This document shows, piece by piece, positions 2,677 through 24,649 of a DNA stretch of 64,000 bases; positions within the stretch are counted from its first letter, which is position 1; every line of letters starts with the position of its first letter. Origin of the DNA: a virus; the IMG/VR virus record IMGVR_UViG_3300032073_000011, positions 1 to 64,000 of that record. One strand, written 5' to 3'. A model generated the notes under the pieces. It saw only the letters and a program-made list of their open reading frames with translations. It was not told where the DNA came from and ran no database searches. Position numbers and translations under genes: made by a program.

Positions 2677-3012
2677 ATGAATGTTATTTTAGATAATAAA
2701 GTCCTTCCACTAGAGATTATGTCTAGCCCTAATGCTATTAGTACTGGTATGATGGGCAGGGAATTTCTTAATGGTGGAATGCTTTTTATTTTTCCGGAAG
2801 TTTCAGAACGTTCTTTCTGGATGAAAGATTGTTTAATGTCTTTAGATATAATCTTTATCATTAATAATAAAGTTACTAAAGTACATAATAATTGTCCACC
2901 CTGTTATGAAAATAATTGTGAATCTTATAAAGGTATATCGGATAAAGTTTTAGAAGTTCCTTCTGGAAAATTTAATGTAAGTGAGGGTGATGTTTTAGAA
3001 TTTACTCAGTAG
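2677..3012 (+). CDS. DUF192 family protein
   Basis: 111 residues matching the small beta-barrel DUF192 family. Features are GMMGREFLNGGMLFIFP (24-40), the family signature FWMKDCLMSLDIIFI (47-61), a NCPPCYENNCESY cysteine cluster (72-84) and GDVLEFT near the end. Most cellular homologues are exported with a signal peptide; this copy has none, so it probably acts inside the cell or virion. DUF192 function is not established. One of few plus-strand genes; its 3' end overlaps the convergent DHH gene by 11 bases. Confidence 0.85.
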   Translation: MNVILDNKVLPLEIMSSPNAISTGMMGREFLNGGMLFIFPEVSERSFWMKDCLMSLDIIFIINNKVTKVHNNCPPCYENNCESYKGISDKVLEVPSGKFNVSEGDVLEFTQ

Positions 3013-4447
3013 CGTCTATATTTTCTTTAATTTTCTTAACCATTTCTTTCTGTACCCATTTTACAAATTCTACATATCTTGTTGGTTTGGCATCTGATTT
3101 TTTCTTGTAAGGTCCTTCTGGTTGTCTAGTTGCTCTACTAAAGAAATTTAACCCACTAATATTAGTTATACATTTGTGACCACCACTATTAGCTTGTATA
3201 ACATCCCAAGCTGGTACAGTTATCTTATCTAAAACTGCTTTTTGTTTTTCACTCAAATTGTCCCATGGTGTATCAATTATACTAACCGCCATATCATAGT
3301 ATTTAGAATCTGTTGATGGCATATTTTGTAAATGGTCTTTGTAGAGAGCGAATAAGTCTGAAGTTTTAAACCCAATACTTTCTCCTTCTGCTTTTGTCTC
3401 CCCTATTCTTTTAATAACAGAAACTGGTACTTGATGTTTTTTAAGTTGTGGTTCAACTTCTTTAAGTACTTCTTGTGCTATATCCCCTAAGTTAACACCT
3501 TTAAGAGCTCTGTCTTTCTTGAAGGGGTTACACGAAGCTTGTACAAGACCCATTGGCCATGCAACTACAAAAAAGTCAGCGTCAGGATAAATTTTAAATG
3601 GTGTATATCTATCATATGAACCTGGTTTAAATAGTCTACCACCACCATACTGTACTATTATATTACCATCTAGGTTTAGATTATTACTTTTTTGTTGTGA
3701 CTTTATGTATTCTGCTTGATTTTGTGCCATTTCTTCTGGTGAAGCAAATCCTTTTTCTTTTGCGTATGAAGTTATGTTTTGATATATGTTCATTAAGGAC
3801 GGTGAAGAATTCATAACTAAATGTTCTAAAAATCCTGGTTTGTTTTTGTAAGCTAATAATAATTTGTTGGTTAAAAGACCTAGCATCCATCTTTTTTCGT
3901 AAGTCTGGTCGCCAGATTCGAAATCTCTAATTAGATTCATTACTTGTTCTGGTTCAATATCGTGTTTTGCATAGTCCGCAGAATCTACAGTATTAATCAT
4001 CATTATATCTTCATCAGTGAAAATATCACTAGGACTTATAGTTTGTGAAATAGTTTCTACGTTTGAACGTGCTCCTCTAAATTGTGTTGCCGTGTCGTCT
4101 TCTACACCTGCTTGTGAATCGTGGTGGTCCGTATGAATTTTAAATATTGGTTTTCCATGTGCAAAATCTACTAGTACCGGCATTACATCCTCACTAGCTT
4201 GTGGTTTTTTTACTGAAAATTCTTTATCACCATATTGTATTACGTGGGTATCGATAACATCTATACCGTATTTTTCTAAATAATTTTTCATACCTAATGC
4301 TGATACAACACCATCTAAATCCTGATGGAAATATATCTCTGCTTTAGGGTATCTCTGAGCTAACTTATTAATATCTCTAATACCACCTTCATTTAAAAGT
4401 GATTTATTAATAAAATCTAATTGTTTTTCTGTTATCTCTATTTTCAT
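3002..4447 (-). CDS. DHH-family phosphoesterase with N-terminal tag
   Basis: 481 residues. Predicted metal-dependent phosphodiesterase of the DHH superfamily (nanoRNase, RecJ and pyrophosphatase relatives). Motifs are QDLDGVVSAL (D43, D45), VLVDFAHG (D94), TDHHD (D107, H108, H109) and VDSADY. A C-terminal DHHA1-like part contains GGHK. The first ~20 residues, MKIEITEKQLDFINKSLLNE, are not part of the DHH fold and match the N-termini of the lysozyme and the M23 peptidase in this window. Substrate unknown; nucleotide recycling or RNA end degradation is plausible. Confidence 0.85.
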   Translation of the reverse strand: MKIEITEKQLDFINKSLLNEGGIRDINKLAQRYPKAEIYFHQDLDGVVSALGMKNYLEKYGIDVIDTHVIQYGDKEFSVKKPQASEDVMPVLVDFAHGKPIFKIHTDHHDSQAGVEDDTATQFRGARSNVETISQTISPSDIFTDEDIMMINTVDSADYAKHDIEPEQVMNLIRDFESGDQTYEKRWMLGLLTNKLLLAYKNKPGFLEHLVMNSSPSLMNIYQNITSYAKEKGFASPEEMAQNQAEYIKSQQKSNNLNLDGNIIVQYGGGRLFKPGSYDRYTPFKIYPDADFFVVAWPMGLVQASCNPFKKDRALKGVNLGDIAQEVLKEVEPQLKKHQVPVSVIKRIGETKAEGESIGFKTSDLFALYKDHLQNMPSTDSKYYDMAVSIIDTPWDNLSEKQKAVLDKITVPAWDVIQANSGGHKCITNISGLNFFSRATRQPEGPYKKKSDAKPTRYVEFVKWVQKEMVKKIKENIDATE

Positions 4448-4452
4448 ATTAT

Positions 4453-4460
4453 ATAAATAC
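4453..4460 (-). promoter_or_regulatory. Candidate phage promoter element GTATTTAT
   Basis: Minus-strand GTATTTAT ends 5 bases before the DHH gene start at 4447 and overlaps the lysozyme stop. It belongs to the recurring (A/G)TATTTAT series. Confidence 0.45.
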
Positions 4461-5026
4461 TACCCCAACCCGTTAACAAAGTGTTGGTATTCTTTTTCTC
4501 TTCTCTTTTTTAATCCTGGAAATTTACTACTAACTCTATACGTTTTAATTGTTTCTGCGGCTTTTTTATAATCGTTAGTTTCTAACACCCCTATACTTTT
4601 TAATAATGCTATTACATTCGACCTCCTTAATCCCCCAGAACCCCCATTATAAGATAATGATAATAAACTATCATACATATTTTGAGTTATGGGTACATAT
4701 ATACCTTGTTCTTCCCATTTTTTAAAAATTTTTCTTAGTCTGTCCGCATGGTAGTTGGAGTCTTCTCGTAATATCTTATTGGCTTCATCTTCACAGTTTA
4801 CACCGTCCCCTAATACATCACCCTCTTTTACCCCTTCTGTATGTCCATAACCTATTGTCCATTTACCATCCCCAATATTGTATGCTTTACATTTTAAACT
4901 CTCTTCATCTCTAATATGACTCCAATACCAATTTGAAGCTTTTAAATCAGAAGCTCTAACAAACTTAGAACTATCTAATTGTTCTGTTATTAATTTAAGT
5001 TGGTTTTCTGTTATTAATATACGCAT
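4460..5026 (-). CDS. GH24 (T4-type) lysozyme with N-terminal tag
   Basis: 188 residues. Peptidoglycan-cleaving muramidase: the core has DEESLKCKAY (catalytic Glu42), WTIGYGHT (Thr57) and TQNMYDSLLSLSYNGGSG with the usual C-terminal helices. The position equivalent to T4 Asp20 is Ile51, with Asp53 two residues on, so the aspartate may be shifted or dispensable. The lysozyme fold begins only near residue 35. The first ~16 residues, MRILITENQLKLITE, resemble the DHH and M23 N-termini, and there is no signal peptide. It may be an endolysin or a virion lysozyme; the tag favours the latter. Confidence 0.9.
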   Translation of the reverse strand: MRILITENQLKLITEQLDSSKFVRASDLKASNWYWSHIRDEESLKCKAYNIGDGKWTIGYGHTEGVKEGDVLGDGVNCEDEANKILREDSNYHADRLRKIFKKWEEQGIYVPITQNMYDSLLSLSYNGGSGGLRRSNVIALLKSIGVLETNDYKKAAETIKTYRVSSKFPGLKKRREKEYQHFVNGLG

Positions 5027-23923: not shown

Positions 23924-24649
23924 GTGAAAATTAGAATAACAGAAAATCAGTACACTAAATTAGTTAAGGAACAGAGGATTAGTATAGACAAAATTAAGAA
24001 AAATATTCCTGACCCACTAAAGAAAATAGCGGAAGCTATTATCAATAGATTAACTAACCCTAGTCCTGCTGATTATAAAGCATTACGTGAGTTATCTAGA
24101 AGTAGATTAGAAAAAGTTTTAAGTTATATTCCTTCTAAATACAAAAATAATGGTGATGCTCCAACTTTATACCCAATACTCACTTTACCAAAAAAAATTA
24201 ATAGTTGTTATGGGTATAGGACTGCTACTGGTACTAATAGAATGCACAGTGGTGTTGACTTGGATACAACTGATTTAAATGATGAACAACCCCTTATATC
24301 TACATGTGCTGGTATAATAAGTAAATCTAATGATGATACGGGGGGTGCTTGTGGTGGTTTTATAAAAATCAATTGTAACAATGGGGATTCTGTTGGTTAT
24401 TGTCATCTTAAAGTTGTTAATGAAAACTTATATGGTTTAAAAGTACCTAAAGGATTTCCTATTGGTGTGTCTGGAGGTGGGATGCATGACCACGGTACGG
24501 GTAATTCTTTGGGCCCACATTTACATTATATAATTTGGAAGGGTGGTAAAAAAGTTAACCCTATAAACGTAATGGATGGTGGACATACTATTCCTGCAAG
24601 TGGTAGTGAAAATAGAAAGGGTAAATACTGTGACCCTAACGTGAGATAG
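23924..24649 (+). CDS. M23 (LytM-type) peptidase with N-terminal tag
   Basis: 241 residues on the plus strand, starting at GTG (an ATG four bases earlier is out of frame and meets a stop). Zinc endopeptidase of the lysostaphin/LytM fold: CYGYRT, MHSGVDLD (H108, D112), GYCHL (H161) and GPHLHY (H199, H201). It would cut peptidoglycan cross-bridges. There is no signal peptide. The first ~16 residues, MKIRITENQYTKLVKE, match the lysozyme and DHH N-termini and precede a helical linker. A virion-borne wall-piercing enzyme is a good guess. It converges on the glycosyltransferase with a 14-base overlap. Confidence 0.92.
   Translation: MKIRITENQYTKLVKEQRISIDKIKKNIPDPLKKIAEAIINRLTNPSPADYKALRELSRSRLEKVLSYIPSKYKNNGDAPTLYPILTLPKKINSCYGYRTATGTNRMHSGVDLDTTDLNDEQPLISTCAGIISKSNDDTGGACGGFIKINCNNGDSVGYCHLKVVNENLYGLKVPKGFPIGVSGGGMHDHGTGNSLGPHLHYIIWKGGKKVNPINVMDGGHTIPASGSENRKGKYCDPNVR

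Follow-up and report, generated by a model that had tools for sequence, protein, structure and literature searches.

Why do two neighbouring phage genes that encode unrelated enzymes, a DHH phosphoesterase and a lysozyme, begin with the same kind of short peptide? Both lie in the window analysed here, which comprises the first 64,000 nucleotides (positions 1-64000) of an IMG/VR record of 102,192 bases. An earlier note had proposed that the shared peptide is a cleavable tag that packages proteins into the virion, as the capsid-targeting sequence (CTS) of T4 does. The resemblance itself is confirmed. Searched as a degenerate DNA pattern, M(K/R)IxITExQ matches three times in the window and in none of 100 dinucleotide shuffles of it, and the other 38 kb of the record contain no further match. 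Two of the matches are the neighbours that the note had recognized; the third, which it missed, opens an M23 peptidase gene at 23924. The tagged genes and their tags are as follows.

3002..4447, minus strand: RecJ-like DHH phosphoesterase, 481 aa, N-terminally tagged
4388..4447, minus strand: DHH tag MKIEITEKQLDFINKSLLNE, predicted cleavage after Glu20 (Glu20 invariant, pLDDT 38-46)
4460..5026, minus strand: phage lysozyme (PF00959), 188 aa, N-terminally tagged
4982..5026, minus strand: lysozyme tag MRILITENQLKLITE, predicted cleavage after Glu15 (Glu15-Gln16 invariant, pLDDT 48-59)
23924..24649, plus strand: M23 peptidase (PF01551), 241 aa, GTG start, tagged
23924..23971, plus strand: M23 peptidase tag MKIRITENQYTKLVKE, predicted cleavage after Glu16

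The interval 4388-5026 comprises the lysozyme gene and the DHH tag. In both genes an in-frame stop lies 15 nt upstream, and the start used is the first possible one to follow it. With the predicted cleavage site marked by an arrow, the N-termini read MKIEITEKQLDFINKSLLNE↓GGIRD for the DHH protein, MRILITENQLKLITE↓QLDSS for the lysozyme and MKIRITENQYTKLVKE↓QRISID for the M23 peptidase, which opens MKIRITENQYTKLVKEQ. A looser version of the tag, MSQQIIITKEQLKRIGGLIE↓EQ, is found on a HAD-like protein that starts MSQQIIITKEQLKRIGGLIEEQ and is encoded outside the window, at record positions 91546-92415. The label 'HAD-like' rests on its DWDDN motif, and the protein has no Pfam match.

The lysozyme belongs to PF00959 (E=3e-21; 76.4 bits, cut-off 22.3), and the M23 peptidase matches PF01551 with E=3e-12. 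The DHH protein has no sequence relatives in the PDB, and its match to the Pfam DHH family PF01368 (E=0.0015) falls under the Pfam cut-off. Its predicted structure, compared using Foldseek, finds RecJ and DHH phosphodiesterases as top matches (E 3e-5, prob 1.00), with low TM-scores of 0.3-0.4 and a model pLDDT of 72. The blocks HQDLDG, VDFAHG, TDHHD and SGGH are kept in aligned orthologues, and fold and metal motifs together place the protein among DHH/RecJ-like phosphoesterases. A role directed against host nucleotide signals or against DNA is conjectural. In the same region, the element TATTTATA occupies positions 4448-4462 of the window. Of 78 gene starts, 8 have it no more than 35 bases away (0.3 expected), that of the DHH gene among them; it lies upstream of the sheath gene (record 97991 on) and other genes, and is a possible promoter element.

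A short N-terminal peptide common to otherwise unrelated proteins extends well beyond this record. In IMG/VR the tag pattern returned at least 120 stretches, and a reversed control of equal composition returned 11. Among the matches listed, 145 tagged ORFs (at least 50 aa, grouped by body sequence) represent 64 unrelated body families, which is the mixture of domains that the earlier note had suggested looking for. The bodies include lysozymes, LysM proteins, M23 peptidases and other cell-wall hydrolases, DHH proteins, zinc-ribbon-like proteins and many unknowns. Their consensus tag is M-K-I-[ILV]-I-T-E-x-Q-[YLF]-x-x-[LI]-x-E. Every synonymous codon is in use within it, so the constraint acts on the peptide. 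The largest tagged family (L010, L016, L050, L108 and L113 are examples) has 17 members in which the tag is followed by a zinc ribbon, CxxCGWSWDLSDGGDDPYICHKCGHDN; several of them are without the cleavage motif. A scan of bacterial and archaeal genomes totalling 257 Gb yielded 89 stretches, nearly all short or internal. Just two of these (L265 and L320) are tag-like, and an origin of the tag in host proteins was rejected on this basis.

The end of the tag is its most constrained part in the families examined by alignment. When one representative per family is considered, 42 of 68 families have (I/L)-x-E at positions 10-24, whereas the two stretches that follow give 15% and 19%. Shuffling the residues at positions 10-24 gives 19 +/- 3.4 families with this motif, and 42 was reached in 0 of 5000 trials. 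About 21 of the 68 families, roughly a third, do not carry (I/L/V)-x-E near the tag, zinc-ribbon proteins among them. Not every tagged protein need therefore be cleaved.

Orthologues of the DHH protein define this boundary most sharply. All 24 distinct N-termini, two from huge phages included, close with (I/L)-x-E directly before the conserved body, which mostly opens (S/G/T)G(I/L)(R/Q)(D/N)I. The peptides before it are 7-21 residues long and otherwise exchangeable: MKIEITEKQLDFINKSLLNE, MKIIITESQFRMMIKE, MKNLLKE↓TGLRDI, MRRLINE↓SGIRDI, MKKIISE, MELVNTLSQILLKE↓SGIRNI, MKNLIRKFLKEHTLILE, MISKYNQFINE and MLRKYGQFINE. Across 23 aligned orthologues, Glu20 is the sole invariant residue of the tag region. 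Similarly, MRILITENQLKLITE↓QLDSS is swapped for MRIAFTKILKELIYE↓QLDTS in relatives of the lysozyme, and Glu15-Gln16 is invariant in nine aligned sequences that include those tagged MRIAFTKILKELIYE↓Q. The HAD family keeps (I/L)-x-E in 47 of 47 distinct contexts though its tag classes swap, and one homologue from a huge phage (LR756504) has no tag. In each of these families the predicted mature N-terminus lies directly after an (L/I)-x-E that closes the peptide. The statement of the earlier note that the real domain begins directly after the Glu holds for the DHH body. It does not hold for the lysozyme, whose Pfam domain begins near residue 41, after a conserved stretch of about 20 residues (QLDxSxFxxAS) that separates it from the tag.

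A tag of the T4 type also calls for a gp21-type prohead protease, which the earlier note had recommended searching for. The 102-kb record, a fragment of mainly tail and replication genes, has no match to the gp21 family (PF03420), but its relatives do. The record is collinear with positions 125-225 kb of a 281-kb relative, G001. The head cluster of G001 includes a PF03420 protease (69.7 kb) and a gp23-like capsid protein (72.2 kb). The propeptide of this capsid protein ends HLINE↓AS, and in 13 relatives the corresponding end is L(I/L)(N/T)E↓(A/S), matching the DHH-tag ends SLLNE↓G and SLLTE↓G. All 13 contigs of relatives that hold the capsid gene also contain PF03420. One of these, G021, encodes a DHH protein 89% identical to that of the window. 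Three tagged or related contigs larger than 200 kb (G002, G005 and G023) have neither the protease nor the capsid gene. On short contigs, PF03420 accompanies the tag in 1 of 21 cases versus 2 of 22 random viral contigs. This lack of association is attributed to fragmentation and is not counted as support; because co-occurrence on fragments is uninformative, we rely on contigs that hold the capsid gene. A genome-wide excess of N-terminal (I/L/V)xE is significant in the 281-kb relative (84/272, p=0.003) and not significant in the 102-kb record (15/79, p=0.38).

Taken at the level of sequence, these comparisons make it likely that the tag M(K/R)IxITExQ(Y/L/F)xx(L/I)xE serves as a portable propeptide for capsid targeting, working like the T4 CTS, and its reading as a peptide cut by the prohead protease is well supported comparatively. 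Nearly all of the sequence-level predictions examined came out as expected, and the T4-like reading offered by the earlier note is supported. Presumably, the N-terminal peptide, in which an extended stretch is joined by a short helix, anchors the protein in the scaffold core during prohead assembly. The gp21-family serine protease would then cut after the Glu of (I/L)-x-E, as expected in the major capsid protein, and so release the mature enzyme within the head. Upon infection, this cargo would pass into the cell along with the DNA. The lysozyme and M23 peptidase could act there on the cell wall, and the RecJ-like DHH enzyme and HAD-like protein on nucleotides, in host takeover or in counter-defence. 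Two further points speak against targeting. Some tag-like peptides sit at a C-terminus, and the lysozyme, if it is the only endolysin of the phage, must also act at lysis.

The tag could instead stay uncleaved and serve as a docking or regulatory motif for some factor of the phage or host, such as a membrane, replisome or chaperone, rather than as an address for the head. We regard this as unlikely. The tagged families without a cleavage motif would be at home with it, as would the many tagged proteins that are small and of unknown role. However, a docking motif should conserve its docking residues, and what remains fixed across swapped tags is the (I/L)-x-E where the body begins, the same motif as at the propeptide site of the capsid protein. 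In other phages, moreover, the same enzymes carry tags like the T4 CTS (see below).

Delivery to a different part of the virion, the tail or baseplate, is very improbable, because the predicted cutter is a head protease whose matching site lies in a head protein. To our knowledge, DHH and HAD enzymes have no role in tails. Some observations do have the flavour of tail lysozymes: among 83 tagged proteins scanned, seven match phage lysozyme and others match LysM or cell-wall hydrolase families. In addition, the tail sheath gene and the tail tube gene flank a group of three genes (record 91546-94519, L005), that of the HAD-like protein included, whose products start with a tag-like or (I/L)xE peptide.

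Structure models bear on the proposal that the peptide is part of each fold, or that the two proteins are distantly homologous at their N-termini. A short helix is predicted for the tag in both models, as such a proposal would have it. Yet the AlphaFold pLDDT of the DHH and lysozyme tags is 38-59, outside the confident part of both models, whereas values of 70-93 predominate in the core of the lysozyme and across much of the DHH model. Orthologues have unrelated tags or lack them, and the pattern precedes 64 unrelated bodies. Swapped and absent tags, a fixed boundary and low tag pLDDT indicate that the peptide does not belong to the fold. As a general reading this proposal is refuted by the swapped and missing tags, and it retains almost no probability. 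One finding that the earlier note named as refuting its idea, a homologue family in which the peptide is merely a piece of the fold, was not encountered. Just as hard to credit is that the similarity reflects chance or a translation-start DNA element, as the shared composition of gene starts in an AT-rich record might allow; the shuffles, the reversed pattern, the codon variation and the presence of the peptide inside fused ORFs all lead to its rejection.

The proposed capsid-targeting propeptide appears to be one of several. In the 281-kb relative, further N-terminal classes have the same ending, among them MKRVIRLTESDLTRIVKRVIKE↓Q, MKQLIKQILKE↓E and MEDKLLNEINRFREITKLPLLTE↓Q. At least four such additional classes ending (I/L/V)xE, each on several proteins, occur at many gene starts of this genome (loci L145-L159), for example, RLTESDLTRIVKRVIKE and LIKQILKE. 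In phages of 634-642 kb, DHH and HAD enzymes are tagged MISKYNQFINE, MLRKYGQFINE, MIKKFNQFLE and MDILRFDQFIRE, which are close to the T4 IPII/IPIII propeptide MKTYQEFIAE↓A (taken from the T4 record). The same enzymes thus carry the tag of their lineage.

Tags are also found away from N-termini. Some HAD relatives are fusions with an internal tag, and one (L248) has a tag near its N-terminus and another at the junction. In L248, L229, L242 and L251-L258, when read from the ORF start to YSFDWDDN, several hundred residues of another protein are fused to the HAD protein. The tag or (I/L)xE lies at the junction, and several of the fused proteins have a metallopeptidase-like HELTHV motif. These fusions look like polyproteins that would be cut by the prohead protease. 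Elsewhere, a C-terminal tag-like copy, KKKSLKLTESQLINIIERVIKERKK, is found on the gene adjoining the HAD gene (L187, L188, L189, L201 and L209), and an internal tag, SKIKKTILITETQKNILE, follows RLNKLVTE around residue 528 in a long ORF (915 aa, L085).

A handful of CTS proteins are known in T4. We give even chances to the broader idea that a large group of T4-like phages uses several interchangeable head-address peptides, both at N-termini and at polyprotein junctions, to load tens of enzymes per genome, such that the injected proteome could be read from gene starts. A single, simple rule at the sequence level would predict which among the hundreds of unknown genes in uncultured T4-like phages encode proteins packaged in the head and injected. 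The predicted set includes cell-wall hydrolases and possible counter-defence enzymes. The peptides are also new candidates for short tags with which foreign cargo could be loaded into the heads of phages. A search of open papers found no description of them.

Among the closest known systems is the CTS of the T4 internal proteins IPII and IPIII. The T4 protease gp21 cuts after L/I-X-E, and the CTS alone carries foreign cargo proteins into the head (PMC9026906). Both systems have a short N-terminal peptide that ends (L/I)-x-E on unrelated proteins. Likewise, in relatives of the present phage a gp21-family protease adjoins a gp23-like capsid gene whose propeptide has the same end motif. In contrast, the ITExQ tag is unrelated in sequence to MKTYQEFIAE, which only the huge-phage tags (MIKKFNQFLE and MISKYNQFINE) resemble, and it is therefore filed as working like the T4 CTS and not as a member of it. 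It also occurs on dozens of families, including peptidoglycan hydrolases. Here one genome has several tag classes, internal and C-terminal copies occur, and cleavage is predicted.

In phages phiKZ, 201phi2-1 and SPN3US, many head or ejection proteins are processed after Glu by a gp21-like protease. However, their motif is (S/A)-x-E or A-x-E, and most SPN3US propeptides are 111-254 residues long with no shared short tag (PMC10052503, PMC9026906). The first 30 residues of DarB from phage P1 suffice to bring a reporter into the head (PMC9024508). This N-terminal capsid targeting signal, tested on one protein there, would be alike in function. The nearest cultured relative is the Flavobacterium phage immuto (Immutovirus), from which we infer a Bacteroidota host. 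The ITExQ class is not seen among its listed N-termini, unlike the situation here. Nevertheless, immuto has a related capsid protein (37%), an annotated prohead protease and a set of repeated N-terminal peptides of its own with (I/L)xE at the end, MENFDLKKFLVENKLTTNSKILKE, MKKQILSEQFKRMQFLAGIITE and MKKSQLRQIIKE, and it is a cultured phage in which the rule is testable.
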